DNA of 64,000 nt from Nocardia spumae (GTDB lineage: Bacteria > Actinomycetota > Actinomycetes > Mycobacteriales > Mycobacteriaceae). Under the pieces are notes generated by a model. That model had not been told where the DNA came from, searched no databases, and worked only from the letters and a program-made list of their open reading frames with translations. Positions 2,740 to 53,639 of the stretch are shown one piece after another; position 1 is the first letter of the stretch; each line of letters opens with the position of its first letter. The stretch is from assembly GCF_020733635.1 (NCBI RefSeq), contig NZ_JAJFZL010000001.1:4216001-4280000 (forward strand), written 5' to 3'. Both the position numbers and the translations under genes were made by a program.

Positions 2740-3762
2740 TCACGCGGCGATACCCAGCCCGGCCGCCAGTACCGGCCACGAGCGCTTCAGCGCATCCTGC
2801 CAGTAGCCCCACGAGTGGGTGCCGGTCGGCTGGAAATCGAAGGTCGCCGGAATTCCCAGCTCCCCCAGCCGGCTCGCGAGATTGTGCGTGCACCAATCGG
2901 CCGCCGCCTCGATCACCCCGCCGATCACCAACTGGTCCAGATATCCGCGCGGACCGGGTTGCATGTGCTCACCGCCGTAGACGTCGTACATACCGGGCAC
3001 ACCGGTTCCGGTGGACACGAACAGGTTCAGCCCGCGCAGTCCATCGGCGTGCACGTACGGATCGTTGGCCACCCACATCGGATCGTCGTCGGGGCCGTAC
3101 ATATTGTCCACATCGCCACCGCCCCAGGTCTGCACCGACAGTTTCACGAACTCCCGGCCCATCGGATCACTGATCTGCGCGCATCCGGAGTAGGCGGCCA
3201 CCGAGCGATACAGTCCCGGCGCGGCGATCGGTAGTTGCAGCACCGAGGTGCCGGAGGTCGACAGTCCGGCCAGCGCGTTCGCCCCGGTGGTCCGGTACCG
3301 CCCGTCGATCAGCGGCGGCAGTTCCGCGGTGAGGAACGTCTTCCATTTGTACACACCGAGTTTCGGATCCGGCGCCCGCCAATCGGTGTAGTAGCTCCAG
3401 CGACCGCCGACCGGCTGCACCACGTAGGTCTGCTTACCGGACAGGAAGCCCGCGACGTCGGTATTGCGTTCCCAGGTCGCCGAATCCTGACCGCCGCCCC
3501 CGCCGTTGAGCAGATAGAGCACGGGCGCGGCGGAGTCTCGATCCGCCGGCAGCTGCACCTTGACCATGATGTCGGTGTTCATCGCCGCCGAATGCACGCG
3601 CAATTGCTCGGTGTGCGGGTCGAGCTGCCAGCTACCGGTGACCGTCGAGCCGTCGGCGGCGGCCGGCTCGGGCTGGGCGCCCGCCGGCGCGGCCGTCGGG
3701 ACCGCGCCCGTCAGACCGAGGACGACGGCAATGATGCTGCCGCGCATCATCTTTGCGAACAT
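2740..3762 (-). CDS. Secreted antigen-85/mycolyltransferase-like esterase (paralogue 1)
   Basis: A 340-residue secreted alpha/beta hydrolase of the esterase-D/antigen-85 superfamily. The start is ATG 3762, chosen because CCAGGAG lies six bases upstream and a Sec signal peptide follows (hydrophobic segment to about residue 29, Ala-rich cleavage region). Family landmarks are VLYLLNGGGGG (about 81-91), YYTDW (124-128), the nucleophile motif GLSTSG with Ser168, and a C-terminal histidine in GTHSWGYW. In Corynebacteriales these enzymes transfer mycolic acids onto trehalose or arabinogalactan outside the membrane; transfer versus simple ester hydrolysis cannot be settled from sequence. It is convergent with the Lrp gene (13 bp between stops). 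Four paralogues lie elsewhere in the window. Confidence 0.85.
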   Translation of the reverse strand: MFAKMMRGSIIAVVLGLTGAVPTAAPAGAQPEPAAADGSTVTGSWQLDPHTEQLRVHSAAMNTDIMVKVQLPADRDSAAPVLYLLNGGGGGQDSATWERNTDVAGFLSGKQTYVVQPVGGRWSYYTDWRAPDPKLGVYKWKTFLTAELPPLIDGRYRTTGANALAGLSTSGTSVLQLPIAAPGLYRSVAAYSGCAQISDPMGREFVKLSVQTWGGGDVDNMYGPDDDPMWVANDPYVHADGLRGLNLFVSTGTGVPGMYDVYGGEHMQPGPRGYLDQLVIGGVIEAAADWCTHNLASRLGELGIPATFDFQPTGTHSWGYWQDALKRSWPVLAAGLGIAA

Positions 3763-4008
3763 GAGTACTCCTGGAGTGAGGATCGAATCGGCCGCCGATA
3801 CGACGAGGCCCGCCGGGCGATGCGGTGTGAGGACATCGCCCGGCGGGCGAACCGCCGTGGGTGTGTGCACTCCGAGGCGCGGAGACGAGGTCGGCGTATC
3901 CTGCTCCGCGCTGGACCCCACGGCGGCGCGCGGCCCGCCGGAACACGATGGGAATGAAGGGCTTTCGCGTTCCGGCGGGCAGGTTCGAGGGTCAGAACAT
4001 CGTCAGGG

Positions 4009-5235
4009 TCACAGCTTCCCACCACCACCCAGCAACCACGGATTGAACGTGCACACCAAACCCGGAGACGCCACCGGATCCAACGCATTCAAAATAATCG
4101 ACAACGAACGCGGCGAATACATCATCGTCAAATGATCCGACAAATCCTGCTCACACCCGTCCTGCATCGTAATATTCCTCACCGTCGCCCCCGGCCCCGC
4201 CTTCAAAAACGTCAAATCATACGGATTCGTCACCTCGTCGTACCGACTCCCCACCACCGTGTAATCCACACCCGGCACCGTATCCCCACCCGCATTCAAC
4301 TGATTCACAAAATCCGAACCGATCGTCTGCTGAATCCCCGAATGACCCACGAAGATCTCCACCAAACCCAGCACATCGATCCCGAAATTATTCACCGCAC
4401 GACCCAACGCACCGATCCCGTCCAACGACGTCCCATGATTCGTCGCACCGAACGTGATCTCACGACGCACCTTCCCCGCACCACCATCGAACTTCAGATA
4501 CCACCGCGACATCGCACCCCCCTGCGAATGCGCCACGATATCCACCTTCCCCGACCCCGTCGCCGCCAACACCCGATCCACGAACTCCGCCAACTGCTTC
4601 GACGAATCCTGGATATACCCCGTCCCGTTCGCCCCCGGCAACACCGAACCCAAACCACCCCCCTGAATCACATTCGACCTACCATAATTGAACGTGAACA
4701 CGCAATAACCCGCATCCTTGATCGGCTGCGACACAAACGAAAAATTGTCATACGCGTTCTCCCACGTACCATGCACCAACACCACCGGCTCCGGATGCGC
4801 CGCACTCGGCTTACAATTCCAATCATTGGCCCCCGGCGGCGCCACATCCGGATGCAACAACCCATACCCGAACGCCGCCAAGAACGACGACTGCCCCGGC
4901 CCGAACCCCACCGTGTCACTCGACATCCCACCCGACGACCCCGAACTCGACCCCGACCCCCCATAACAATCCCCCGACCCGTTCCCCGACCCCGCACCAC
5001 TACCCGACGTACACGCCGACCCCGTCCCCGAACTCCCCGAATCCGCCACCGCACGCGCAGCCGGATCCTTCAAACCACGCGTGATCAACTCCGCCAACTG
5101 CCGCTCCCGCGCCTGATCACCCGGCGACGCGGTCGGATCGGCCTGGGCGGAGGGGCCCGCGAGGCCCAGGGCCGACAGCGAGATCACCGCCGCGAACACG
5201 GCATAGCGCGGCCAACGGCGAATGGTGGGCCTCAT
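4009..5235 (-). CDS. Secreted triacylglycerol lipase with Ser/Gly-rich linker
   Basis: A 408-residue protein from ATG 5235 (GAAAGG upstream). It has an Arg-rich N-terminus and Sec signal peptide (cleavage probably after PSAQA), then a short helical region. Next comes a linker of about 40 residues made almost only of Ser and Gly with two Cys (residues 66-105), then an EstA/LipA-like alpha/beta hydrolase domain. The oxyanion motif VHGTW is at 154-158, the nucleophile elbow AHSQGG has Ser237, and a C-terminal SDH histidine is near 379. It should hydrolyse acylglycerols or related esters outside the cell. Codons from about 4017 to 5120 are almost all G- or T-ending on the coding strand, unlike the signal-peptide codons and the neighbours. 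A longer reading from 5298 lacks a ribosome site. Confidence 0.85.
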   Translation of the reverse strand: MRPTIRRWPRYAVFAAVISLSALGLAGPSAQADPTASPGDQARERQLAELITRGLKDPAARAVADSGSSGTGSACTSGSGAGSGNGSGDCYGGSGSSSGSSGGMSSDTVGFGPGQSSFLAAFGYGLLHPDVAPPGANDWNCKPSAAHPEPVVLVHGTWENAYDNFSFVSQPIKDAGYCVFTFNYGRSNVIQGGGLGSVLPGANGTGYIQDSSKQLAEFVDRVLAATGSGKVDIVAHSQGGAMSRWYLKFDGGAGKVRREITFGATNHGTSLDGIGALGRAVNNFGIDVLGLVEIFVGHSGIQQTIGSDFVNQLNAGGDTVPGVDYTVVGSRYDEVTNPYDLTFLKAGPGATVRNITMQDGCEQDLSDHLTMMYSPRSLSIILNALDPVASPGLVCTFNPWLLGGGGKL

Positions 5236-7346: not shown

Positions 7347-8536
7347 GCGTACTCCTCGGTGCGAGAGTCGGTGCCGAGATCGAAGGCCAGCAATGCCAGG
7401 CTGGCGCGAGCGATACCGTCCGGGCGAGCCAACTCGATACCTGTCAGCCGTTCGATCCGCCGGACCCGATGCGAAAGACTGTTGGGGTGTATCGCGAGCC
7501 GCCCAGCGGTCGACTTGCGATCCAGTCCCGAGTCTACGTACGCCCGAAGAGTTTCCAGCAGTTCCGGATACGGTGTCAGCGGGCTCAGCACCGCCGCGAG
7601 ATGATCTCGTGCCGGTCCCGGCCTGGTCAATTGGTATTCCACCGCCACATCGGCGATGTCGTAGAGTCCCGGCGGGCGGCCCAGCGCACGCACCAACTCC
7701 AGCAATTCGTGTGCCTGCGCCGCGAGTTCCGGAATGCGCGCGGTCACCCCGGTGACCACGGCCGCGGTCAACGGTACCGAGGCCGCCGCCGACAGGACCT
7801 CGAGGGTATCGGCGGTGAGAACCGGCGCATCGATGCGCGCGGTCGCACCGGAGTCCGCGGGAACCAGGATGGTGCCGCCGTCGACCGACAGCAACGACAG
7901 TGCCCGGGAACCCAGCACAGGCGCGAGCGCACTCTGCAACCGTCGCAGTTTTCGGCGCGCGACGGTCTCGGCATTGCGCCGCGGATCGGTTTCGCCCGGA
8001 TGTGGCGCGATCGACAGCGCCACCACCTGGTAGGACGGCGCGACGGCGATTCCGGTGCGGCGCGCCAGAGCTGCCCGGCCGTGCCCGCTCAGCAGTGCGG
8101 TCACCAAGGTCTGGGCGGCGGTCTGATGATGCCGGGCGGCACACCGATGTTCGTCGAGATAGGCGGCCGAGGTGGCCACGGTCACCGTCTCGAGCAGCCG
8201 CAGGGCCTGGTCGGCGTCGGCGATCAGATTCCCGCCGTCGCCGCGACCGTCGGCGAGATCGATGAATGCCGTCCGTACCGCCTCGTGGTAGGCCCGCAGC
8301 ACGGTGTCGAGATCGACACCCTCGCGCGCCCACGCTCCCGCGCGACCGACGAGCTCGGCCAAGCGCGTGGCGTCGGCCGGCACCGGATCGGGTTCGACCA
8401 CGAGATCTGCGGCCAGTGCGAGGCATTCACGCACGCCGACGCCGAGCTCGGCGGTGGTATCGGTGCGGGTGACGGGGGCCTCGGCGCCCGCACCGCGAGT
8501 CAGGGTCGCCGCCAGGCTGGGTGCGGATGGTGTCAT
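7343..8536 (-). CDS. PucR/CdaR-type helix-turn-helix regulator (first in operon)
   Basis: A 397-residue regulator starting at ATG 8536 (TGGAG upstream). The C-terminus has the PucR-type HTH domain: PELLETLRAYVDSGLDRKSTA, then LAIHPNSLSHRVRRIERLTG. The central part (REGVDLDTVLRAYHEAVRTAF, then ARRKLRRLQSAL...LSLLSVDGGTILVP) is shared with two paralogues at 12338 and 51786. The N-terminus lacks a classical PucR purine-sensing domain, so the signal is unknown. It overlaps paralogue 2 of the mycolyltransferase-like genes by 4 bp and probably controls that operon. Triple CGGTGCCG half-sites lie about 250-285 bp upstream of its start. Confidence 0.82.
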   Translation of the reverse strand: MTPSAPSLAATLTRGAGAEAPVTRTDTTAELGVGVRECLALAADLVVEPDPVPADATRLAELVGRAGAWAREGVDLDTVLRAYHEAVRTAFIDLADGRGDGGNLIADADQALRLLETVTVATSAAYLDEHRCAARHHQTAAQTLVTALLSGHGRAALARRTGIAVAPSYQVVALSIAPHPGETDPRRNAETVARRKLRRLQSALAPVLGSRALSLLSVDGGTILVPADSGATARIDAPVLTADTLEVLSAAASVPLTAAVVTGVTARIPELAAQAHELLELVRALGRPPGLYDIADVAVEYQLTRPGPARDHLAAVLSPLTPYPELLETLRAYVDSGLDRKSTAGRLAIHPNSLSHRVRRIERLTGIELARPDGIARASLALLAFDLGTDSRTEEYA

Positions 8537-8957
8537 CGGGTCGCTCCAGAATCTTTCCCCGCGCGAGGTGTGCCCACCGGATGCCCTGGGGTGAAGGTGC
8601 ACCCGGCGGACGGTTCCACTGCTACGCACAGTCACCACGTCGAGGAAGGGGTTGGAAGTCCTGGTGCCGCAGCTCGAGCTGTACGTCGTGAGCGGCAAAT
8701 TCGAGTCTCGGGCGCCGCTCATCGGTGGCCGGCCCGACGCCGCACTGTCGACCTCCTTATCTCCCGAAGGTGCGGTGCGTCGGTGCCGAACGCGGCACCG
8801 TCCGCGCAAAAACCGGTGCCGCGTTCATATCACGGTACGGCCACGAATTCGCGTCGAGTCCGGGTCGTCGTTGATCCGATGACAATTCATGAACCGCACC
8901 GAGGGCGGCTGGGGTCCGGACACAAAAGCCCGTCGCTGTGAATGCGCGCAGTGCCGA
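8537..8957. other. 421-bp upstream region of the PucR operon, no gene
   Basis: No open frame here has convincing start signals or family resemblance. The region should hold the promoter of the PucR/mycolyltransferase operon. Its most striking content is the CGGTGCCG half-site cluster described separately. Confidence 0.5.
8781..8821. promoter_or_regulatory. Cluster of three CGGTGCCG half-sites, candidate regulator operator
   Basis: CGGTGCCG at 8781-8788 is mirrored by CGGCACCG at 8793-8800, a perfect 8-bp inverted repeat with a 4-bp spacer. A third copy of CGGTGCCG lies at 8814-8821. Inverted plus direct half-sites upstream of a self-contained regulator operon fit an autoregulatory operator. 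A small hairpin is an alternative. Confidence 0.5.
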
Positions 8958-10391
8958 TCAGCATTCGTCTGGTGCGGGCGCACCCTGCAACCGTTGATCG
9001 ACCCAGCTCATCGCCTCCGGATATCCGAGCCCGGCCGCGATGATGTGTTCGCCCGGCACACTGCGGTATATCGCTGCCACACCCATCGAACACTGATCGT
9101 GGTAGAGCTCACGCGCACCGGCGGCCGGAATCCAGAATTCCTGTTCGCCGTTGTAGACGTAGAGCGGTACAGCCGATTTCATGCCCTGCATGCGCGTGAC
9201 CCGGTAGATGTCGCCGGCCAGCGCGCTGTGCAGCGGATCAGGACTGTCCGCGGCGATATCGATGGGAAGCGACAGCACGCCGGGGACGGCGAATACACCC
9301 GCACAGGTGTCCTTGAGCGGCGACAGCGCCGCCCAGCGCGCGAGATTGTTCATCCGTGCCAGGATTTCGGGCCGCTCCCGTCCGACGCCGAAGGTGGCGG
9401 CCAGGAACACCCCGGATGCCAGATTGGCGTTCATGCTCGTCGACAGGATCTGATAGTCGGCGGGCACTCCGCCGAGGGCGGCCCCGACCACGACCGACGC
9501 CAGCTCCGGTGCGTAGGAATCGATCAGCGCCACCGCACCGCGGGTGGCGATGGCACCGCCGGAGTATCCGTGCATCGCGTATCGGCTGTTGCCGAAGTCG
9601 GCCGGCAGCGCCGAGCGCACCGCGCGAATCGAATCGAGTACCGCGTGCCCGGCGACGAAGGGTTCGGCATACGCCATCCGCGGACCCTCGTGATCGGGGA
9701 TCAGCACCGCGTAGCCGCGCAACAACGCCAATTGGGTTGTCGGTGGGACGAAATCGGTGGTGCCGGTATCACCGGTGAATCCGTGCGCGAGCGTGTAGCC
9801 GGGCGTGCACTTGCGGCCCAGCGCATCGATCGGCAGATTGTTCACCAGCACTGGCCGCGTGCCGGGACCCGCCCAGGGCGCTGCCGGAACGGCCAGTGTC
9901 GCAGTGGCATACGACGGCCCGTCATGGGCGTCGGTGGTGCGGAATTTCAGCTGCAGCGCGCGCTGTACCGGGACCACCAGCAACGGCGCCGCGGTCGGGG
10001 TCACATCGCGGGTGGTGATCACGTCGCCGGGACGGAACCGGTCCAGATCCGCGGGCCAGTCGTCCACCATCGGATCGCCCACCGGCGAAGGCATCACCGC
10101 GTCCTGCAGCCGGGCCAGATCCGGGGATACCCCGGCCTCGACACCGGCGGCCTGCTCCGGAGCCGGGATGGGAGGTGGCGGAATCAGGGCATCGATCCAC
10201 CGTTGCAACGGCGACTGTTCCGATCCCGTCGCCGGATCGGGCGTCGCCGGATTCGGCACCGGTCCCGACGGTAACGATATGGAGGGTAACGGCAACGCGG
10301 GCAAGGGTATCGGCGGCTGTGCCGTCGCGGTCCCCCACACGGGACCACAACCGATCAGCAGCATCGCGACCAGAGCATGCCGGATTCGCAT
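8958..10391 (-). CDS. Secretory lipase, LIP family (first of two)
   Basis: A 477-residue exported alpha/beta hydrolase of the LIP family (Candida LIP-like secretory lipases, common in Nocardia). The signal segment at residues 1-25 contains LIGC, which also fits a lipobox, so a lipid anchor is possible. A Pro-rich stretch follows (26-90). The catalytic domain has a GDVITTR strand typical of the family, IPDHEGPRMAY, the nucleophile elbow MHGYSGGAI with Ser277, and a C-terminal histidine in PGEHIIAA. The likely role is hydrolysis of host or environmental lipids outside the membrane. A second, distinct LIP gene follows on the same strand. Confidence 0.85.
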   Translation of the reverse strand: MRIRHALVAMLLIGCGPVWGTATAQPPIPLPALPLPSISLPSGPVPNPATPDPATGSEQSPLQRWIDALIPPPPIPAPEQAAGVEAGVSPDLARLQDAVMPSPVGDPMVDDWPADLDRFRPGDVITTRDVTPTAAPLLVVPVQRALQLKFRTTDAHDGPSYATATLAVPAAPWAGPGTRPVLVNNLPIDALGRKCTPGYTLAHGFTGDTGTTDFVPPTTQLALLRGYAVLIPDHEGPRMAYAEPFVAGHAVLDSIRAVRSALPADFGNSRYAMHGYSGGAIATRGAVALIDSYAPELASVVVGAALGGVPADYQILSTSMNANLASGVFLAATFGVGRERPEILARMNNLARWAALSPLKDTCAGVFAVPGVLSLPIDIAADSPDPLHSALAGDIYRVTRMQGMKSAVPLYVYNGEQEFWIPAAGARELYHDQCSMGVAAIYRSVPGEHIIAAGLGYPEAMSWVDQRLQGAPAPDEC

Positions 10392-12337: not shown

Positions 12338-13624
12338 ATGACAGTCGACAGCGCGAGCCGATCGAGTCTCACCTTCTCGGGACGGCCGATGTCGTCGCCG
12401 TTGAGGGATGTATGGTCCCTGTCCCGGCACATGGTCGGCCACTTCGTCGAAAACGTCGCACCCTGCGGCACCCTGCCCGGCGACGCCATCCACGGCGACA
12501 TCACCACCATCACCCGCACCTGCCTCGAACTCGCCATCAGCCTCCTCGACGGCCGCGACATCCCCGAAAAAACCGAACGCCTCAAAGACGCCGCCGCCGC
12601 CTGGGCCCGCGAAGGCGTCCCCATCGACACCATCCACCACGCCATCCACGAAGGCTTCAAAATCGGCTTCGACCTCGTCGTCACCAACGCCACCACCAAA
12701 AACACCAGCAATACCGGCAGCACCACCAGCGCGAGCACCGAACCCACACTCACCCTCACCCACACCGACTACACCAACCTCCTCCAAGGCGCCAAACTCC
12801 TCGTCGAAATCCTCGACACCATGACCACCGCCGTCTCCCACGCCTACGTCCGCGAACTCCGCGCCGTCGTCTCCGAACACCACAACGCCGTCCACACCCT
12901 CACCTCAGCACTCCTCGGCGGCCACCCCACCAGCACCATGGCCCGCGAATGCGGCATCGAAATCGCCGACAACTACCACATCCTCGCCCTCCACATCCCC
13001 CCACACCCCGACCAACACAACCCCCACCTCGACCCCACCATCATCGCCCGCCGCAAACTCCGACGCATCCAAGCCGCCCTCGCCACCACCACCCACACCA
13101 CCACACTCTCCCTCCTGTCCACCGACGGCGGCACCCTGCTCATCCCCACCACCCACACCACACCCACCGACCTCGACCCCCTCATCACCCACCTCTCCCA
13201 CGCCGCCCGCGTCCCCATCACCGCCACCACCACAACCACCACCACCACCGACATCCCCACCGCCACCGACCAAACCCACCAACTCCTCGACATGGTCACC
13301 CGCCTCGAATCCATCCCCGGCCTCTACCGATTCGACGACCTCGCCCTCGAATACCAACTCACCCGCCCCGGCCCCGGACGCGACCACCTCGGCACCCTCC
13401 TCAACCCCCTCGACCACCACCCCGAACTCCTCACCACCCTCCAAACCCACATCGCCAACAACCTCAACCGACAACGCACCGCCCGACTCCTCCACGTCCA
13501 CACCAACACCGTCGACTACCGACTCAAACGCATCGCCCAACTCACCGGCTTCGACCCCACCCAAGCCAGCGGACTCTGGTACCTCCGCTCCGCCCTCGTC
13601 GCACGCACCTACACCACCAACTGA
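12338..13624 (+). CDS. PucR/CdaR-type regulator with extreme C-ending codons and Thr-rich inserts
   Basis: A 428-residue regulator from ATG 12338 (GGAAGGAG upstream). It is a paralogue of the 51786 gene: both share EHHxAVHTLTSALLGGH, a MARECGI/LARECGI segment, ARRKLRR(I/V)QAAL, EYQLTRPGxGRD and the C-terminal HTH (RQRTARLLHVHTNTVDYRLKRI, GLWYLRSAL). From about 12430 to the stop the coding strand is extraordinarily C-rich and G-poor (36 C and 5 G in 13381-13440), wobble positions being nearly all C or A. The protein has matching low-complexity Thr runs (near residues 124-148, 252-258, 292-306) where the paralogue has ordinary sequence. Downstream is an APH-like kinase 89 bp away on the same strand. 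Confidence 0.82.
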   Translation: MTVDSASRSSLTFSGRPMSSPLRDVWSLSRHMVGHFVENVAPCGTLPGDAIHGDITTITRTCLELAISLLDGRDIPEKTERLKDAAAAWAREGVPIDTIHHAIHEGFKIGFDLVVTNATTKNTSNTGSTTSASTEPTLTLTHTDYTNLLQGAKLLVEILDTMTTAVSHAYVRELRAVVSEHHNAVHTLTSALLGGHPTSTMARECGIEIADNYHILALHIPPHPDQHNPHLDPTIIARRKLRRIQAALATTTHTTTLSLLSTDGGTLLIPTTHTTPTDLDPLITHLSHAARVPITATTTTTTTTDIPTATDQTHQLLDMVTRLESIPGLYRFDDLALEYQLTRPGPGRDHLGTLLNPLDHHPELLTTLQTHIANNLNRQRTARLLHVHTNTVDYRLKRIAQLTGFDPTQASGLWYLRSALVARTYTTN

Positions 13625-13713
13625 AAGCACAGGTGAAAGAACGTTTTCCGGACCAGGTGCGGAATCTCCGAGTCCGCTTGCCAGACCACCTCATTGGGGG
13701 TAAGTCTTCGAGG

Positions 13714-37635: not shown

Positions 37636-37884
37636 GGATACCTCGTTTCGTCCAGAAGTGACGGACCGACCCGCACCGGCCACGCCGCCGGGTCACGCGG
37701 ACCGAGTCAACGCCCACCGAGCCCTCCGCGCCAACCGTCACCACCGAAGTTTGTGACCTTCCCCAGATCCGGTCGAACCCGATAGGCCCTCGGTCCCAAC
37801 ACTTGCCGGATCTCCTTGCGACCACCTCCTTCGCGGGCCTACGTTGGCCGCCGACCGAACCCGCCGGATCGAGAGAGGTACCGG

Positions 37885-38931
37885 ATGGATCGCCGTACAC
37901 TCCTCGCCGCCCTACCGGCGGCACTGCTGACCGTGGCCCTGTGCGCCGTCCCGGCCACGGCGGACGACCCGCCACCGGCGCCGGTGAGCATCGCCGCGCT
38001 GACCGCCGCCGCCCGGCCCGCCGCCGACGGCGCCCATCTCGTCGCCGTCGAGCAGGGCGAGGACGGCATGCTGAACGTGCGCGTGCACTCGTCGGCGATG
38101 AACCGCGAGATCGATGTGAAAGTGCTTCGGGCACCCGATGGTTCGTCTCCAGCGCCGGTGCTCTACCTGCTCAACGGGGCCAGCGGCGGATCGGAATCCA
38201 GCAGCTGGCCCGAGCAGACCGATGTCGTCGGCTTCTTCCGCGACAAACAGGTCACGGTGGTGACCCCGATGGGCGGCAACGGCAGCTACTTCGCCGACTG
38301 GCGCGCCGATGATCCCGTCCTGGGACGGCAGAAGTGGGCGAGTTTCCTCACCGCGGAACTCCCCCCGATCATCGATTCGGCCTTCTACGGTTCGGGAGCC
38401 AATGCGGTGGCGGGTATCTCGATGGCGGGGACATCGGTCTTCCAGCTGGCGCTGGCCTCCCCCGGGCTGTATCGGGCAGTCGGTTCCTACAGCGGCTGCG
38501 CCCGCACCAGCGACCCGCTGGGACAAGCTTTCGTCGACGGAGTCGTCGTGCGCTGGCACGGGGATCCGCTGAATCTGTGGGGTGCGCCCGATGATCCGCT
38601 GTGGGCGGCGCACGATCCGTACGTCAATGCCGATCGGCTGCGCGGTCTGGCGATCTACGTATCGACAGGTAACGGTGTTCCAGGCCCGCTCGACGGTCTC
38701 GACGGCCCCGGAATTCACGGCAACGGACACAAACTCGTCGAACAGCTCGTCTACGGCGGGGTCCTGGAGGCCGCGACACACAACTGCGCCATCACGTTGC
38801 GAGATCGGCTGGCGCAGTTGAGTATTCCCGCGACATTCGACCTACGCGCCACCGGCACCCATTCCTGGGGTTACTGGCAGGAGGATCTGCACCGCTCATG
38901 GCCGATGTTCCGGCAGGCGCTCGACCGCTAG
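37885..38931 (+). CDS. Secreted antigen-85/mycolyltransferase-like esterase (paralogue 3)
   Basis: A 348-residue protein from ATG 37885 (AGAGAGG six bases upstream) with a signal peptide (MDRRTLLAALPAALLTVALC, cleavage near ATA-DD). Landmarks: VLYLLNGASGG, YFADW at about 135-139, nucleophile motif GISMAG with Ser179, and C-terminal GTHSWGYW. It is closest to the 49361 and 50675 pair in length and wording (DKQVTVVTPMGG, NLWGAPDDPLWAAHDPY). Its codon use is normal throughout, unlike that pair. It is convergent with the antiporter gene, the two stops sharing CTAG. Confidence 0.86.
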   Translation: MDRRTLLAALPAALLTVALCAVPATADDPPPAPVSIAALTAAARPAADGAHLVAVEQGEDGMLNVRVHSSAMNREIDVKVLRAPDGSSPAPVLYLLNGASGGSESSSWPEQTDVVGFFRDKQVTVVTPMGGNGSYFADWRADDPVLGRQKWASFLTAELPPIIDSAFYGSGANAVAGISMAGTSVFQLALASPGLYRAVGSYSGCARTSDPLGQAFVDGVVVRWHGDPLNLWGAPDDPLWAAHDPYVNADRLRGLAIYVSTGNGVPGPLDGLDGPGIHGNGHKLVEQLVYGGVLEAATHNCAITLRDRLAQLSIPATFDLRATGTHSWGYWQEDLHRSWPMFRQALDR

Positions 38932-47911: not shown

Positions 47912-48712
47912 ATGGATCGGATCGTTTCCGCCCTCGGCGACAGCGCCCGGTGGCGCATCGTCGAACTGCTCGCCGAACAACCCCGCTCGGTCGGTGAACT
48001 CGCCGAACTGACAGGTTTGCGGCAGCCGCAGACCACCAAACACCTGCAGACGCTGGCGCGGGCGGAGGTGGTCTCGGTCTTTCCGCTCGGGCAGCGCCGC
48101 GTCTACGCACTCGACCCGCAGCCGCTGCGTGAACTCGGAGGGCGGTTGCGGGAATTGGCGGAAACCGCCGAGTCGCACGCCGGCGAGCGCGACGTCATCG
48201 CCCGCTATCGTGCGGCGATCGACGCGGAATCCCTTGCGGCCGAACATGACCGGTGGGCCGAGGGCCGGCGTTTCGTCTTCGACCGCACCCTGGCCGCCGC
48301 CCCGGAAGTGGTGTGGCGGCACTGGGTCGATCCGGATCTGCTGGCGGCCTGGTGGGTTCCGGCACCGCTGCGGATCACCGAATGTGTCCTCGAACCCCGG
48401 CCGGGTGGGCGCGCTGTCCTCGAGTACCACGATGCCGAGGGACACCGGTACCGCTCGGAAGGTCTGGTGCGGGCCGTGAGCCGCCACGACCGTCTCGTCT
48501 TCGAGCTGTCGGTGCTCGACCCGACCGGTGCGGTGATGTTCACCGGGCACTACACGCTCACCCTCGCCGCGGCCGCCGACGGCACCGACCTGCGGCTGGA
48601 ACTGACCATCGCCGAAACCACCGTCGCGGCGGTCTCCGCCATCGCCGGAATCGAGACCGGATGGAGCCGGGTCCTCGACAACCTCGCCGACGCCGTCGGC
48701 GTCACCCACTGA
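47912..48712 (+). CDS. ArsR-type HTH fused to SRPBCC (AHSA1) domain
   Basis: A 266-residue fusion from ATG 47912. Residues 1-90 form an ArsR winged helix (DRIVSALGDSARWRIVELLAEQPRSVGELAELTGLRQPQTTKHLQTLARAEVV). Residues 110-266 are an AHSA1/SRPBCC ligand-binding domain (FDRTLAAAPEVVWRHWVDPDLLAAWWVP). The fusion suggests a one-component sensor where a hydrophobic ligand in the SRPBCC cavity controls DNA binding. It is 41 bp ahead of the DHFR-like gene, in operon. Confidence 0.88.
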   Translation: MDRIVSALGDSARWRIVELLAEQPRSVGELAELTGLRQPQTTKHLQTLARAEVVSVFPLGQRRVYALDPQPLRELGGRLRELAETAESHAGERDVIARYRAAIDAESLAAEHDRWAEGRRFVFDRTLAAAPEVVWRHWVDPDLLAAWWVPAPLRITECVLEPRPGGRAVLEYHDAEGHRYRSEGLVRAVSRHDRLVFELSVLDPTGAVMFTGHYTLTLAAAADGTDLRLELTIAETTVAAVSAIAGIETGWSRVLDNLADAVGVTH

Positions 48713-48753
48713 ATCCGACCGGCGACGCCGGCACCCAGAACAGGAGTACGACC

Positions 48754-49353
48754 ATGTCCGAGTCGACCACACGCAAGGTGACCGCGAACATCAGCATCAC
48801 CCTCGACGGCCGCTACAACGGCCCCGGCGGCCCCGCCGATCTCGGCGCCATCGTGCCCTACGCGACCACCGAGGTCGCGCGCGATCAGCTCACCCGGATG
48901 TGCGCCGACGCGACCACGGCGGTGCTCGGCAGGGGTAATGCCCAGGGGTTCCTCGGATTCTGGCCGTCGGTCGCCGCCGATGACACGGCCGATCCACGCG
49001 ACCGCGGCTATGCGAAATGGCTGGTGGATACCGAGAAAGTGGTGTTGTCGACCACCCTGACCGAGGCCCCGTGGGAGCACGCCCGCATCGTCGACGCCCC
49101 GCTCGCCGAGGTCGTCGCCGAACTGCGCGCCTCCGGCACCGGCGACATTCTCGTCAACAGCAGCGCGAGCATCATCAAGGACCTGCTCGCCGCGGATCTG
49201 CTCGACCGTCTCTATCTCATCGTCTGCCCCGAGATCGCCGGCGCCGGACAGCGTTTGTTCGACGACGGCCTGCCCGGCACCCGATGGACGCTGACCCATC
49301 AGGAAACCGGAGAACTGGGTGAGATGGCACTGGTCTACGATCGGGTCCGCTGA
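48754..49353 (+). CDS. DHFR/RibD C-terminal-like reductase
   Basis: A 199-residue protein from ATG 48754 (AGGAG upstream). The fold is that of the DHFR/RibD family: VTANISITLDGRYNG, VVLSTTL, GDILVNSSASIIKDLL and DRLYLIVCPEIAGAGQRLF. It should bind NADPH and reduce an unidentified small molecule. A related but not identical paralogue lies at 56018. It is probably induced by the ligand of the ArsR-SRPBCC protein. Confidence 0.82.
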   Translation: MSESTTRKVTANISITLDGRYNGPGGPADLGAIVPYATTEVARDQLTRMCADATTAVLGRGNAQGFLGFWPSVAADDTADPRDRGYAKWLVDTEKVVLSTTLTEAPWEHARIVDAPLAEVVAELRASGTGDILVNSSASIIKDLLAADLLDRLYLIVCPEIAGAGQRLFDDGLPGTRWTLTHQETGELGEMALVYDRVR

Positions 49354-49360
49354 CGCGCGC

Positions 49361-50404
49361 TCACTGCCTCAGCGCGTCGGCGAACAGCTCCCACGATCGG
49401 TGCAGATCCTGCTGCCAATAACCCCACGAATGGGTGCCGGACGGACGAAAGTCGAAGGTGGCGGGCACATTCAATTGCCGCAGCCGATCGTGGAGCTGAT
49501 GGGTGCACAGATCGGTGACCGCTTCCAGCGCCGCACCGAAGACCAGTTGATAGGCCAGTTGCGTGGTGTCGCCGTGCGCACCGTCGAGGGTGTCGAGTGG
49601 GCCCGGTAACCCGGTCCCGGTCGAGACGTAGATCGCGGTGCCTCGCAACCGATCCGCGTGCAGATACGGATCATTGGCCGCCCACGCCGGATCCGTGGGC
49701 GGACCCCACATATTCACCGTGTTACCCATCCGCCCACCGACCACCGCATCGACGATCAACTGCCCCTGCGGATCACTGGTCCGCACACACCCCGAATACG
49801 AACCGATCGCCTTGTACAAACCCGGCGCCGCCAACGCCAACTGGAACACCGACGTCCCCGCCATCGAAATACCCGCGATCGCATTCACCCCACTACCACC
49901 GAAACCCGAATCGATGATCGACGGCAACTCCCTAGTCAGAAACGTCGACCACCGCTGCCGACCCAGCACCGGATCATCGGCACGCCAATCCGTGAAATAA
50001 CTACTCGCCCCACCGAACGGCACCACCACATTCACCTGCTTATCCGCGAAAAACGACGCCACATCCGTACGATCGGACCAGCTGCCGTCGCTGATGCCGC
50101 CGTTGGCGCCGTTGAGCAGATACAGCGTCGGCGCCGGACGATCCGGATCGGCGGCACGCAGGACCTGCACTCGCGTCACATTGCGCATCGCCGCCGAATA
50201 CACACCGACATCGAGGATCCGGTCGCCGCGGGTGCGGACGTCGTGGATGCGCGAACCGTCGGGAGCGCTCACCGCCGAGAAATCCCCGGCCGGATCCGCG
50301 GCGGCCCGCGCACCGGTGACGGTGGTCGCGGCCGCCACGGCGACCATCGCCGTCACGACGGCCACGACCCGCGCGATACGAATTCTCGGCGGGGGCCTGT
50401 CCAT
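49361..50404 (-). CDS. Secreted antigen-85/mycolyltransferase-like esterase (paralogue 4, inverted-repeat copy A)
   Basis: A 347-residue protein from ATG 50404 with a signal peptide (Arg-rich start, hydrophobic run, cleavage near ARA-AA). Landmarks: LYLLNGANGG, YFTDW (136-140), nucleophile motif GISMAG with Ser180, and C-terminal GTHSWGYW. Residues about 112-275 are encoded by the 491-bp inverted repeat and are identical to copy B; the N-terminal part and the last 70 residues are not. In the repeat, codons are mostly G/T-ending. It is divergent from copy B (starts 270 bp apart) and converges with the DHFR-like gene (7 bp). Confidence 0.87.
   Translation of the reverse strand: MDRPPPRIRIARVVAVVTAMVAVAAATTVTGARAAADPAGDFSAVSAPDGSRIHDVRTRGDRILDVGVYSAAMRNVTRVQVLRAADPDRPAPTLYLLNGANGGISDGSWSDRTDVASFFADKQVNVVVPFGGASSYFTDWRADDPVLGRQRWSTFLTRELPSIIDSGFGGSGVNAIAGISMAGTSVFQLALAAPGLYKAIGSYSGCVRTSDPQGQLIVDAVVGGRMGNTVNMWGPPTDPAWAANDPYLHADRLRGTAIYVSTGTGLPGPLDTLDGAHGDTTQLAYQLVFGAALEAVTDLCTHQLHDRLRQLNVPATFDFRPSGTHSWGYWQQDLHRSWELFADALRQ
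49581..50071. repeat. Left arm of a 491-bp perfect inverted repeat
   Basis: Reading its reverse complement from 50071 to 49581 gives the same bases as 51065-51555. By eye I find no mismatch, and sequence diverges abruptly at both ends. It covers the catalytic core of copy A. The arms are separated by 993 bp (50072-51064), which contain both promoters and both N-termini. Confidence 0.93.
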
Positions 50405-50674
50405 CCTCGTACTCCGATCTCGGACACCATTGTTCGCAACGTGGTCACGCGACAGCCGCCGACGATATTCGGGAGCCGGGATCGACGTTTTCGACCAGTC
50501 AACGGCGTCACTGCGAATACGTCATCCGATATCGCCGAATTTGTGGCCGATACCAGCGCCGCGCGGTACGTACTGGCATCCGGGCCAAACCTGGGTACCG
50601 GCAATTGCCGGGTATCGGCGCCCGCCCTATCGTCGGCGGCGATCGCGCAGTTCGTATCCGAGAGAAGGCGGCAC

Positions 50675-51823
50675 GTGGATTCTGCTGTCCGGCACGGCCT
50701 CTCCCAACTGTCGGGCCGGGCGGCCGCGGCGGCCTGCCTGGCGGCCGGTCTCGCGGTCACCGGTCCCGCCACCGCACAGGACCCGTCGGTGCCGCCGCCG
50801 GCCTCCGCACCCGCGAATACCGCTGCAGCAGCATCGATCTCGACCGACCGGGTGCGTTCGGCGGCCCGGCCCGCGGCCGACGGATCGTACCTCGCCGATG
50901 CCGTGGCCGGGTCGCCGCGCGCGCTCACCGTCACCGTGCACTCGGCCGCCATGAATGTGCCCGTGCGCCTGGAAGTTCTCGCGGCACCGGATCGTTCGCG
51001 TCCGGCACCCACCCTCTATCTGCTCAACGGCATCGACGGCGGAGCCGGCGGTAATTGGCTCAACCGTACGGATGTGGCGTCGTTTTTCGCGGATAAGCAG
51101 GTGAATGTGGTGGTGCCGTTCGGTGGGGCGAGTAGTTATTTCACGGATTGGCGTGCCGATGATCCGGTGCTGGGTCGGCAGCGGTGGTCGACGTTTCTGA
51201 CTAGGGAGTTGCCGTCGATCATCGATTCGGGTTTCGGTGGTAGTGGGGTGAATGCGATCGCGGGTATTTCGATGGCGGGGACGTCGGTGTTCCAGTTGGC
51301 GTTGGCGGCGCCGGGTTTGTACAAGGCGATCGGTTCGTATTCGGGGTGTGTGCGGACCAGTGATCCGCAGGGGCAGTTGATCGTCGATGCGGTGGTCGGT
51401 GGGCGGATGGGTAACACGGTGAATATGTGGGGTCCGCCCACGGATCCGGCGTGGGCGGCCAATGATCCGTATCTGCACGCGGATCGGTTGCGAGGCACCG
51501 CGATCTACGTCTCGACCGGGACCGGGTTACCGGGCCCACTCGACACCCTCGACGGACCCGGCATCCACGACAATCCCGCGACTCTGGCCGATCAGCTGCT
51601 CGTCGGCGGCGCACTCGAGACCGGTGCGGTGCGATGCACTCGCGAATTGCGGGACAGATTCACCGAACTCGGTATCCCAGCCACGATCGACATGCGCCCG
51701 GACGGCACCCACTCGTGGGGCTATTGGCAGCAGGATCTGCACCGGTCCTGGCCGATGATCGCCACCGCCGTCGGCGCGGACCCGGTCACGCGGGACGGCG
51801 CGTATCCTGATCGCCCGCACTGA
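50675..51823 (+). CDS. Secreted antigen-85/mycolyltransferase-like esterase (paralogue 5, inverted-repeat copy B)
   Basis: A 382-residue protein from GTG 50675 (AGAAGG upstream). The frame stays open far to the left, but the signal peptide (VDSAVRHGLSQLSGRAAAAA, cleavage near ATA-QD) and ribosome site fix this start. It has a Pro/Ala linker, RSAARPAADGSYL and LYLLNGIDGG; the core (residues about 131-294) is identical to copy A, with nucleophile Ser at about 199. The C-terminus keeps GTHSWGYW and adds a 14-residue tail. Its last 38 bp overlap the end of the converging PucR-type gene. Confidence 0.87.
   Translation: MDSAVRHGLSQLSGRAAAAACLAAGLAVTGPATAQDPSVPPPASAPANTAAAASISTDRVRSAARPAADGSYLADAVAGSPRALTVTVHSAAMNVPVRLEVLAAPDRSRPAPTLYLLNGIDGGAGGNWLNRTDVASFFADKQVNVVVPFGGASSYFTDWRADDPVLGRQRWSTFLTRELPSIIDSGFGGSGVNAIAGISMAGTSVFQLALAAPGLYKAIGSYSGCVRTSDPQGQLIVDAVVGGRMGNTVNMWGPPTDPAWAANDPYLHADRLRGTAIYVSTGTGLPGPLDTLDGPGIHDNPATLADQLLVGGALETGAVRCTRELRDRFTELGIPATIDMRPDGTHSWGYWQQDLHRSWPMIATAVGADPVTRDGAYPDRPH
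51065..51555. repeat. Right arm of the 491-bp perfect inverted repeat
   Basis: Mirror copy of 49581-50071. The coding (+) strand here is G/T-rich (26 G versus 10 C in 51241-51300), whereas the flanking codons of the same gene are C-rich, so the repeat stands out compositionally too. Confidence 0.93.
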
Positions 51824-53027
51824 GCCGGGCGATCAATGCCGAACGCAGATACCACAATCCGGTGGTCCGCGACGGATCGAACCCGGTCAGCTGCCCGATG
51901 CGCCGCAACCGGTAGTCGATCGTATTCGGGTGGATGCACAGCTGACGGGCCGCACGCTGCCGGTTGAGATCGGTGCCGAAGAAGACCTGCAAGGTCTCCA
52001 GCAGTTCGGGATGGGAATCCAGCGGCGCCAGCCGCGCATCGAGGATGTCGCGACCGATTCCCGGCCGGGTCAACTGATACTGCAATGCCAGCTCCGCGAA
52101 TCGGTGCACCCCCGGTCCGCGCCCCAGCCGCCGCACCGTATCGAGCAGATCGTGTGCCTGCTGGGCGGCCGCGGGCACCTCAGCGGCCGATGCGCTCACC
52201 ACGGCCGCGGTCAGCGGCACCCCGGCCAGCTCCGACAGCCGGGCGAACAGTTCGTCGAGGTCGGGCTCCGCACAGGCGGACTCGGGAACGAGGATGCTGC
52301 CACCGTCGACCGACAACATGGCCAGCGGGTTGTCGCGCAGCAGCTTCGCCAGCGCTGCCTGCACCCGGCGCAGCTTCCGCCGCGCGACGACCTGCTTGTC
52401 CAGCCGCGGATGGGTCTCGTCGGGATGCGGTGGAATCCATACCGCCAGAACGAAATACCGGTCCGCGATACGGATTCCGCATTCTCGCGCCAACTTCGTG
52501 GTGGCGTGCCCACCGAGCAGGGCCGAGGTGAGCGTGTGGACGGCGGTGTGGTGTTCGGCGGCATCGGCACGCCGCTCCTGGACATAGGCCTTGTTCACCG
52601 CCGCGGTGATGAGATCCAGCAGTTCCAGCGCGGTCGCGGTGCCCTTGATGACAAGTGCGGCATCGCTGGCGCGGGCGCGGGCGAACAGCAGGTCGAGTCC
52701 GGCCTTGAAGCCCTCGTGCACCGCGTGCACGACCACCTCGATCGGTATTCCGGCCCGGCACCAGCGCGCCGCGGCCGCCCGGAGCCGATCGGTTCGCTCG
52801 GGCAGGTCGCCACCGGCCACGCGCCGGACCGCCCACTCCACGCACAACCGCGCCATCGGGGAGACCTCGGTGGCCAGCACATCGGCCGGCAGGGTGGTGA
52901 ACGGTGGCACCACGGCGGCGAGGTGCGCGACCAGTTCACGGGCCATCTCGTGGGCGTCGCGCATCGATAGCGAGAGCGCGCGCCCGGATGTCGTGCGCTC
53001 AGCACCGACCGTGCTTGCTGTAGTCAC
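51786..53027 (-). CDS. PucR/CdaR-type regulator adjacent to the inverted-repeat mycolyltransferase pair
   Basis: A 413-residue regulator from GTG 53027 (AAGGAGG six bases upstream). The C-terminal HTH (RQRAARQLCIHPNTIDYRLRRIGQLTG) and GLWYLRSALIARL closely match the 12338 protein, which has quite different codons. The central ARRKLRRVQAALAKLL...AMLSVDGGSILVPE block is common to all three paralogues. Position suggests control of one or both mycolyltransferase-like genes. The 3' end overlaps copy B antisense. Confidence 0.85.
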   Translation of the reverse strand: MTTASTVGAERTTSGRALSLSMRDAHEMARELVAHLAAVVPPFTTLPADVLATEVSPMARLCVEWAVRRVAGGDLPERTDRLRAAAARWCRAGIPIEVVVHAVHEGFKAGLDLLFARARASDAALVIKGTATALELLDLITAAVNKAYVQERRADAAEHHTAVHTLTSALLGGHATTKLARECGIRIADRYFVLAVWIPPHPDETHPRLDKQVVARRKLRRVQAALAKLLRDNPLAMLSVDGGSILVPESACAEPDLDELFARLSELAGVPLTAAVVSASAAEVPAAAQQAHDLLDTVRRLGRGPGVHRFAELALQYQLTRPGIGRDILDARLAPLDSHPELLETLQVFFGTDLNRQRAARQLCIHPNTIDYRLRRIGQLTGFDPSRTTGLWYLRSALIARLSAGDQDTRRPA

Positions 53028-53639
53028 TCTGACCTCCTTGTCACGGACCGGATTTCGCGCCTGCGCGAAACCCGCCGCACGGTGATCGGGCGATTCCGAC
53101 ATCTCCCGCTCCCCGGCTATCTGTTACGTGTTGAAACGGTAATGCGAGTCCGCGCTCACCTTCTACTCCGTTTTGGCGATCGTCGACACCTCGGGGCAGG
53201 ACCTCTCACCTGCGGATACTCCACCCAACAGCGACCACGGGCGATATTCGCGGCCAAAAAATGGGGATCCGCTCACTTTTCACTCCGCTCCCGCGGCGAC
53301 CAGGGATTGCGGGAATCTCACCAAATCTCACCGCGCTGGGCTCCGCGTGGGGATACCGACATGAACAGGGCTGGCTGACCGGTGGTGAATCCGCTGGTCC
53401 GATTGCGAGCCCGGCCGCACCACCGGACACCAGCCGGGCGCTGTCCCGGGATCGGGTCACCGAGATCCGGGGATCGGATGCGCCGCTGCGAGAACGGGGG
53501 TTGTGGCGCCTTCTCTACGAATCCTCGGCACGCGCCGAGGAGGTGCCGATGCCGAATGCGCCCGATCTCGATACGGGTGTGGCAGATTGCCGCCCCACGT
53601 CATGAATGGTCCGCTGATCAGTACGGCTGAAGGGGTGGA
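53028..53639. other. 612-bp region without a supported gene
   Basis: Several short frames are open but have neither ribosome sites nor recognisable protein character. Two loosely similar stretches (CGCTCACCTTCTACTCCG near 53153 and CGCTCACTTTTCACTCCG near 53271) may be degenerate repeats in the PucR promoter. Confidence 0.45.

Follow-up and report, generated by a model that had tools for sequence, protein, structure and literature searches.

A perfect inverted repeat with strong strand skew links two divergent mycolyltransferase-like genes of Nocardia: probable gene conversion and occasional inversion

Two divergent mycolyltransferase-like genes of Nocardia spumae share a perfect inverted repeat of 491 bp. 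The repeat is best read as a GRINS-like tract whose arms probably convert each other, by what may be a RecA-type route, and occasionally invert the DNA between them. GRINS are described, in passages of two papers on polyketide synthases, as near-identical repeats that go together with GC and TA skew (PMC10394414, PMC9899208). The repeat itself is real, and it has a feature that an earlier reading missed: most of each arm is strongly skewed in both GC and TA. This skew places the repeat beside GRINS-like tracts found elsewhere in the same genome.

The window, meaning the whole 64-kb stretch of DNA that was analysed, sits in a 6.98-Mb contig of a 7.07-Mb genome assembled in 5 contigs. The genes, their parts and their neighbours are arranged as follows.

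48253..49353, plus strand: open reading frame with a RibD_C domain (PF01872), on the flank opposite the regulator
49361..50404, minus strand: gene 1 (N1-core-C1), an open reading frame of 347 amino acids, predicted Cmt1/antigen-85-like mycolyltransferase (PF00756, E 1.1e-30; PDB Cmt1 8qhf/4h18, 213 bits)
49361..49580, minus strand: C1, the C-terminal part of gene 1, which contains the THSW motif
49581..50071, minus strand: left arm of the perfect inverted repeat, within gene 1, 491/491 against the right arm
50072..51064, no strand: spacer, with both N-terminal coding parts and the intergenic region, which would flip on inversion and is inverted relative to the PucR-type gene in genome G132 (locus L146)
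50675..51823, plus strand: gene 2 (N2-core-C2), the divergent paralogue, about 382 amino acids from a putative GTG start at 50675 (PF00756, E 2.7e-30; PDB Cmt1, 221 bits)
51065..51555, plus strand: right arm of the perfect inverted repeat, within gene 2, 491/491
51556..51823, plus strand: C2, the C-terminal part of gene 2, which contains the THSW motif
51786..53102, minus strand: PucR-type regulator (PF13556), the flank that anchors orientation

The first-pass annotation described a perfect inverted repeat with abrupt ends, and this proved exact. The arms are reverse complements of each other at 491 of 491 bases, with sharp edges at which identity stops abruptly. On the outer side, similarity drops immediately to scattered matches. 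On the inner side there is a weaker stretch of 44 nt at 84% in a different register. A repeat finder reports one match of 528 nt at 97% that covers both arms and, apart from it, lists just two inverted pairs of 80 nt or more in the window. One of these (92 nt at 80%) consists of the C-terminal parts of genes 1 and 2, and the other measures 103 nt at 71%. The next-best full-length matches to the arm anywhere in the genome reach 70% and 66%. Chance is excluded because all 491 bases are identical, third codon positions included. GC content is only modestly lower in the arm (62%) than over the window (68%).

The spacer also has the extent and content first given for it: 993 bp that contain the 5' ends of both genes together with the intergenic region. 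Gene 1 and gene 2 use the same reading frame through the arms. Therefore, a swap of parts leaves both frames open, as had been claimed.

Each arm makes up most of the core of one PF00756 esterase-type gene. The core is the best-conserved part of the gene and contains the serine-motif region. Both genes are predicted Cmt1/antigen-85-like mycolyltransferases, which upholds the original naming. Besides PF00756, each has similarity to a solved mycolyltransferase over nearly its whole length (residues 16-345 of 347 in gene 1 and 16-365 of 382 in gene 2), and these are the features by which the class was assigned. Among solved relatives Cmt1 ranks best, followed by protein PS1 and antigen 85, and the serine-motif, glutamate and THSW regions can be aligned with Cmt1. 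Cmt1 is a corynebacterial mycolyltransferase, and the three aligned regions may correspond to the Ser, acid and His triad of antigen 85. The signal peptides of both genes were assessed by eye. At least three further mycolyltransferase-like genes lie in the 64 kb (2740-3921, minus strand; about 6531, minus strand; 37816-38931, plus strand), with diverged cores and without intense skew.

The skew is confined to the arms. On the coding strand, the arm as a whole has a GC skew of 0.275 and a TA skew of 0.254. In 150-nt windows from the arm start to about base 390, GC skew lies between 0.34 and 0.38 and TA skew between 0.21 and 0.38. The last 100 bases of the arm carry no skew, and the intense part covers about four fifths of each arm. 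Windows fully outside the arm range from -0.17 to 0.07 for GC and from -0.08 to 0.22 for TA. Two stretches stand out in these windows.

49741..50100, minus strand: intense-skew stretch of the left arm, coding strand rich in G+T (150-nt windows, both skews >0.25)
51061..51420, plus strand: intense-skew stretch of the right arm (150-nt windows), the sole one of 41 such stretches whose sign runs against its replichore

Two simple origins for the skew were considered and set aside. A codon-usage preference of the whole gene does not account for it, since no such skew is seen in the N- and C-terminal parts of either gene. Horizontal transfer of the core out of a genome with unusual codon usage is not favoured, as the core clusters with other Nocardia cores and its oddity is mainly one of strand asymmetry.

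Related genomes provide the main evidence for gene conversion. The genus was searched in 148 and then 150 genomes, together with named loci, and the best 77 of 207 loci all belong to Nocardia. From these searches, 20 divergent pairs were picked and typed by their N-terminal (N1, N2) and C-terminal (C1, C2) parts. Opposed core pairs also occur outside the typed set, for instance in G112. Pair counts leave out one lone paralogue (L110) and a third paralogue in G132, while the trees leave out L110 and include the third G132 paralogue.

It had been suggested that repeat identity be compared in related strains, and that comparison bears out identity in part. Near-identical cores, with 0-5 of 495 bases different, are found in 4 of the 20 pairs: the source genome, G132, G023 and G062. 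The remaining 16 typed pairs have diverged cores. At third codon positions, the two cores of one genome are 98.8% identical in the source genome, 98.2% in G132, 100% in G023 and 98.8% in G062, compared with 56-74% in the other 16 pairs. Between genomes the same measure gives about 86% for the source genome and G132, 75% for G023 and G062, 68% for the source genome and G023, and 64% for the source genome and G062. The core pair of the source genome has three differences, at core bases 1, 3 and 495, all beyond the arm. Within the arms, 0 differences at about 164 third positions put a 95% upper limit of 1.8% on divergence since the last homogenisation, against 14% between the source genome and G132. 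In the three other genomes, all of them in 1-2 contigs, the perfect arms are 467, 512 and 480 bp long, and each has its own sequence.

The core tree agrees with the earlier claim of conversion between the cores. Cores pair within the genome in the source genome (support 97/79), G132 (100/99), G023 (identical) and G062 (100/98), with a warning from the tree program about odd base make-up in the source-genome and G132 cores. Among the other 16 pairs, 12 cluster by gene, namely nine of the nova clade and three of the N. pneumoniae group. Only the C2 core groups by gene in N. veterana, N. bovistercoris and N. arizonensis, and the placement of both MAGbin16 cores lacks resolution. In trees of the N- and C-terminal parts, all four G132 parts cluster with their own N type or C type. 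These trees rest on short alignments, in which many inner forks lack resolution and the N. pneumoniae group has its C2 parts outside the C2 clade.

Traces that resemble conversion are also seen in the diverged pairs. In 8 of the 16, runs of 50 to 141 identical bases exceed the expectation from codon shuffling (reached in at most 3 of 2000 shuffles). In the nova clade these runs lie mostly at core bases 346-486, with one at 241-311. They may be short conversion tracts, and local conservation may contribute to them. Taken together, the homogenisation of cores within genomes suggests recurrent gene conversion. The four homogenised genomes represent two clades only and are not four independent cases.

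Among the typed pairs, skew goes together with homogenisation. The arms of the other genomes have GC/TA skews of 0.289/0.277 in G132, 0.230/0.164 in G023 and 0.148/0.115 in G062. The profile sits at the same core position in G132 and G023 and is weaker in G062. At third positions of the first 435 core bases, G makes up 54-59%, C 14-31% and A 0-3% in the four homogenised pairs, compared with 28-44% for G and 32-60% for C in the remaining 16. The median skew of 124 distinct cores is -0.02/0.00. Skew thus accompanies identity in 4 of 4 pairs and 0 of 16 (p 0.0002), a test that ignores shared descent within two clades.

Single skewed mycolyltransferase cores also exist, in G049 (L140) and G040 (L130), and these are possible relics of a lost pair. 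The G049 core (L140:1003-1491), with skews of 0.24/0.19 and no better match elsewhere in its genome than one of 75%, counts against a simple link between skew and identity. So does the mild skew of the lone cores in G007, G071 and G117. Collapse of repeats in short-read assembly was considered for these three and rejected: the stretches continue past the gene without a partner, which a missing partner fits better.

A further prediction of recombination between inverted arms is that the spacer may be found in either orientation. The first-pass annotation had also proposed looking for orientation differences in relatives, and one assembled genome, G132, does have the spacer inverted relative to the PucR-type gene. 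N1 is linked to C1 and N2 to C2 in 19 of the 20 typed pairs, source genome included. In G132 the links are N1-C2 and N2-C1, and its spacer is inverted relative to the PucR-type gene plus the C2 terminus (73% identity over query bases 2-990). The canonical orientation is seen in 10 of 10 other nova-clade loci that include the PucR-type gene; in an eleventh locus, the stretch holds no PucR-type gene. Identical arms are found in four genomes, of which G132 is inverted and the other three canonical. The orientation difference is known between species, from assembled genomes. The G132 arrangement may be a misassembly, as it comes from a single genome in which a perfect repeat of 467 bp could mislead an assembler. 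A link between core identity and inversion is suggestive: swapped pairs make up 1 of 4 homogenised and 0 of 16 diverged pairs, which is not significant (Fisher p 0.20).

The probable course of events starts with a strand-skewed, recoded tract in the catalytic core. This tract would stay identical through repeated homologous recombination between the arms, presumably performed by a RecA-type pathway. In most cases the result would be gene conversion limited to the core, since the flanking N- and C-terminal parts are too different to pair. If an event were instead resolved as a crossover, the 1-kb spacer would flip, and the promoter, signal peptide and N-terminal part of each gene would be joined in frame to the core and C-terminal part of the other. 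Such a crossover may have produced the arrangement in G132, and recombination between the arms probably persists today. The benefit might be new N/C combinations of a pair of cell-wall enzymes, or swapped promoters. Of the two options first named, a switch or ongoing conversion, the evidence points to conversion as the main process and to inversion as something that happens now and then; a regulated two-state switch is a less likely possibility.

Such a reversible switch is the strongest of the other explanations, though we consider it unlikely. It would flip frequently within a culture, and selection would maintain arm identity in order to re-pair promoters and N-termini with C-termini. The perfect arms, the preservation of both frames and the one assembled relative in the opposite orientation all fit this model. 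The split of three canonical and one inverted among identical-arm genomes fits as well, but random flipping could also yield it. Conversion alone, however, explains the identity of the arms, and since the frames are open in either state, the gain from switching is hard to see. A Pfam scan of 18 selected ORFs, located between 37.8 and 62.9 kb, detected no recombinase domain, in keeping with the original statement that none is nearby. The scanned ORFs are a selection: the region from 36 to 64 kb has 58 ORFs of at least 180 amino acids, many of them overlapping.

A simpler model needs only a single recent conversion or partial duplication in each lineage. Nothing would be ongoing, and the orientation in G132 would be an accident or an assembly error. 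A single copying event would also yield 491 identical bases of 491, and G132 may indeed be misassembled. Still, repeated events account more easily for four homogenised genomes in two clades, for the long runs of identity that 8 of the 16 other pairs contain, and for skew confined to the arms. We therefore regard the single event as improbable.

Repeats of about 0.5 kb commonly provoke errors in short-read assembly, which raises the question of whether one arm is a false copy of the other. Such an artefact is very hard to reconcile with the position of the window within a 6.98-Mb contig of a 5-contig assembly, or with the perfect arms of 467, 512 and 480 bp, each of its own sequence, in three other genomes of 1-2 contigs. 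Finally, extreme selection on the active-site region with no recombination at all, which the serine-motif region in this best-conserved part might suggest, can hardly be entertained: it is refuted by third positions that are 98-100% identical within four genomes and 14-36% different between them, and cores are diverged in 16 of 20 pairs.

The preferred reading, conversion with occasional inversion, can be set against other skewed repeats in the genome. Two of these lie in the same window.

3972..5130, minus strand: lipase gene tract, the window's third skewed repeat, 97-99.7% identical to a copy 0.76 Mb away
12363..13625, plus strand: PucR-type gene, the window's second skewed repeat, 99% identical to a copy 1.6 Mb away

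Both tracts were first found by a scan for skew alone and were then shown to be near-identical repeats, and in both the ends of identity and of skew roughly coincide. The coding strand of this PucR-type gene (12363-13625) is strongly C/A-rich, with skews down to about -0.7/-0.5.

A wider sample of the genome comprised 100 stretches of 20 kb plus the window, or 2.06 Mb, drawn from the first 5.84 Mb of the 6.98-Mb contig. In this sample, 97 stretches lay on a fixed grid and three were shifted, two to take in partner copies and one to stay clear of the window. Four repeat pairs reach 85% or more over 250 bp, all with strongly skewed windows; two are present because the stretches with their known partners were chosen and one is the inverted repeat, which leaves only a PKS pair as independent. 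In that pair (L181:1854-3790 and 8079-10015), PKS modules form an 85.7% direct repeat over 1.95 kb with strong skew. Judged from its sequence, it is a classic GRINS in the same genome.

Skewed stretches overlap repeats in 15 of 41 cases, against a mean of 0.14 under random placement, and 12 of the 15 sit in the window or in the two chosen stretches. Two skewed stretches outside large ORFs (in L219 and L207) were chosen for a search of the whole genome for partners. The first, L219:11947-12603, has an 86% partner 17 kb away, and its longest ORF has no Pfam match. The second, a non-PKS stretch in L207, found no partner in that search. Large ORFs also hold skewed stretches, NRPS genes among them. 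As a background, intense-skew stretches are far from rare in relatives, whose 82 loci (1.05 Mb) contain 20 of them besides the arms of G132 and G023.

The sign of the skew appears to follow replication. Binned GC skew changes sign near 3.5 Mb, and the skew sign matches the replichore in 40 of the 41 stretches, whichever strand codes; the 41 fall into 17 clustered loci, the border comes from the same data, and sampling ends 1.1 Mb before the end of the contig. The right arm is the exception. Two identical arms in opposite orientation cannot agree with the replichore at the same time, so if the rule is real, at least one arm was skewed by copying. An inverted pair is in this way a natural test of the origin of skew, as its two copies cannot both obey a replication-strand rule.

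From this arises a broader idea, which is possible and is offered tentatively. Skewed, recoded, conversion-prone tracts might be spread genome-wide in Nocardia instead of being peculiar to PKS genes, and mark pairs of lipase, regulator and mycolyltransferase genes for conversion over megabases. Their sign would follow the replication strand, and where two such tracts face each other they could serve as a switch, reshuffling promoters and enzyme halves by inversion.

The repeat provides a compact GRINS-like example in a pair of ordinary enzyme genes; its boundaries are clean, and diverged relatives serve as controls. Its inverted geometry means that any crossover would leave a visible trace in the form of an inversion. 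Because of this combination, the frequency of recombination and the origin of the skew, from replication or from recombination, become testable. If the flip occurs in culture, it would give a mycolic-acid bacterium a recombinase-free means of re-pairing the promoters and N-termini of its cell-envelope enzymes. Among the titles and abstract starts of the matches listed, literature on Nocardia mycolyltransferase repeats, GRINS and intragenic inversions contained no report of this arrangement, and a search on RecA-dependent inversion in Actinobacteria gave no paper.

At the level of the protein, the closest known systems are Cmt1 and antigen 85 (PDB 8qhf, 4h18, 1sfr, 1dqz). The Nocardia genes resemble them over nearly the whole length, with the serine-motif and THSW regions aligned. 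Unlike them, the Nocardia genes are a divergent pair with a common converted core, and they are known from sequence alone.

In the site-specific invertible DNA of phase-variation switches, inverted repeats flank a spacer that bears a promoter, and the repeats are short sites for a recombinase. The Nocardia repeat shares the inverted repeats around a promoter spacer, and in both cases inversion alters which sequences are joined. It differs in its arms, which are 491 bp long, and in its surroundings, where the 18 scanned ORFs hold no invertase or other recombinase domain. A diversity-generating element was also considered and dropped, since both copies are identical and the depleted letters clash with the signature of such elements.

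The original GRINS abstract, from 2021 in PNAS, is said to mention other gene families. For GRINS as applied here, identity is >80% and often >90%, length is about 1 kb or at least 500 bp, and the partner lies within the same assembly-line PKS. Skew cut-offs are >0.25 for both GC and TA (PMC10394414) or a mean >0.15 (PMC9899208), in the passages concerned. Those passages place GRINS in megasynthases and give no mechanism for the origin of the skew. In identity the arms reach 491/491, and in length (491 bp perfect, 528 bp at 97%) they stand at the lower limit. Measured over the whole arm, the source genome and G132 pass both skew cut-offs, G023 passes the lower only and G062 passes neither. Conversion is indicated by the grouping of cores within the genome in four genomes. 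In their working the arms resemble GRINS. They lie in PF00756 genes and not in one PKS, and because of this home they are called GRINS-like and are not filed as GRINS. What the two have in common is near-identity within a genome, strong GC and TA skew, probable gene conversion and an actinobacterial host. In contrast to GRINS, the Nocardia repeat is inverted, measures about 0.5 kb and occupies two separate genes for single-domain enzymes instead of PKS modules. A further difference is that it can, in principle, invert DNA and shuffle promoters and N-termini.
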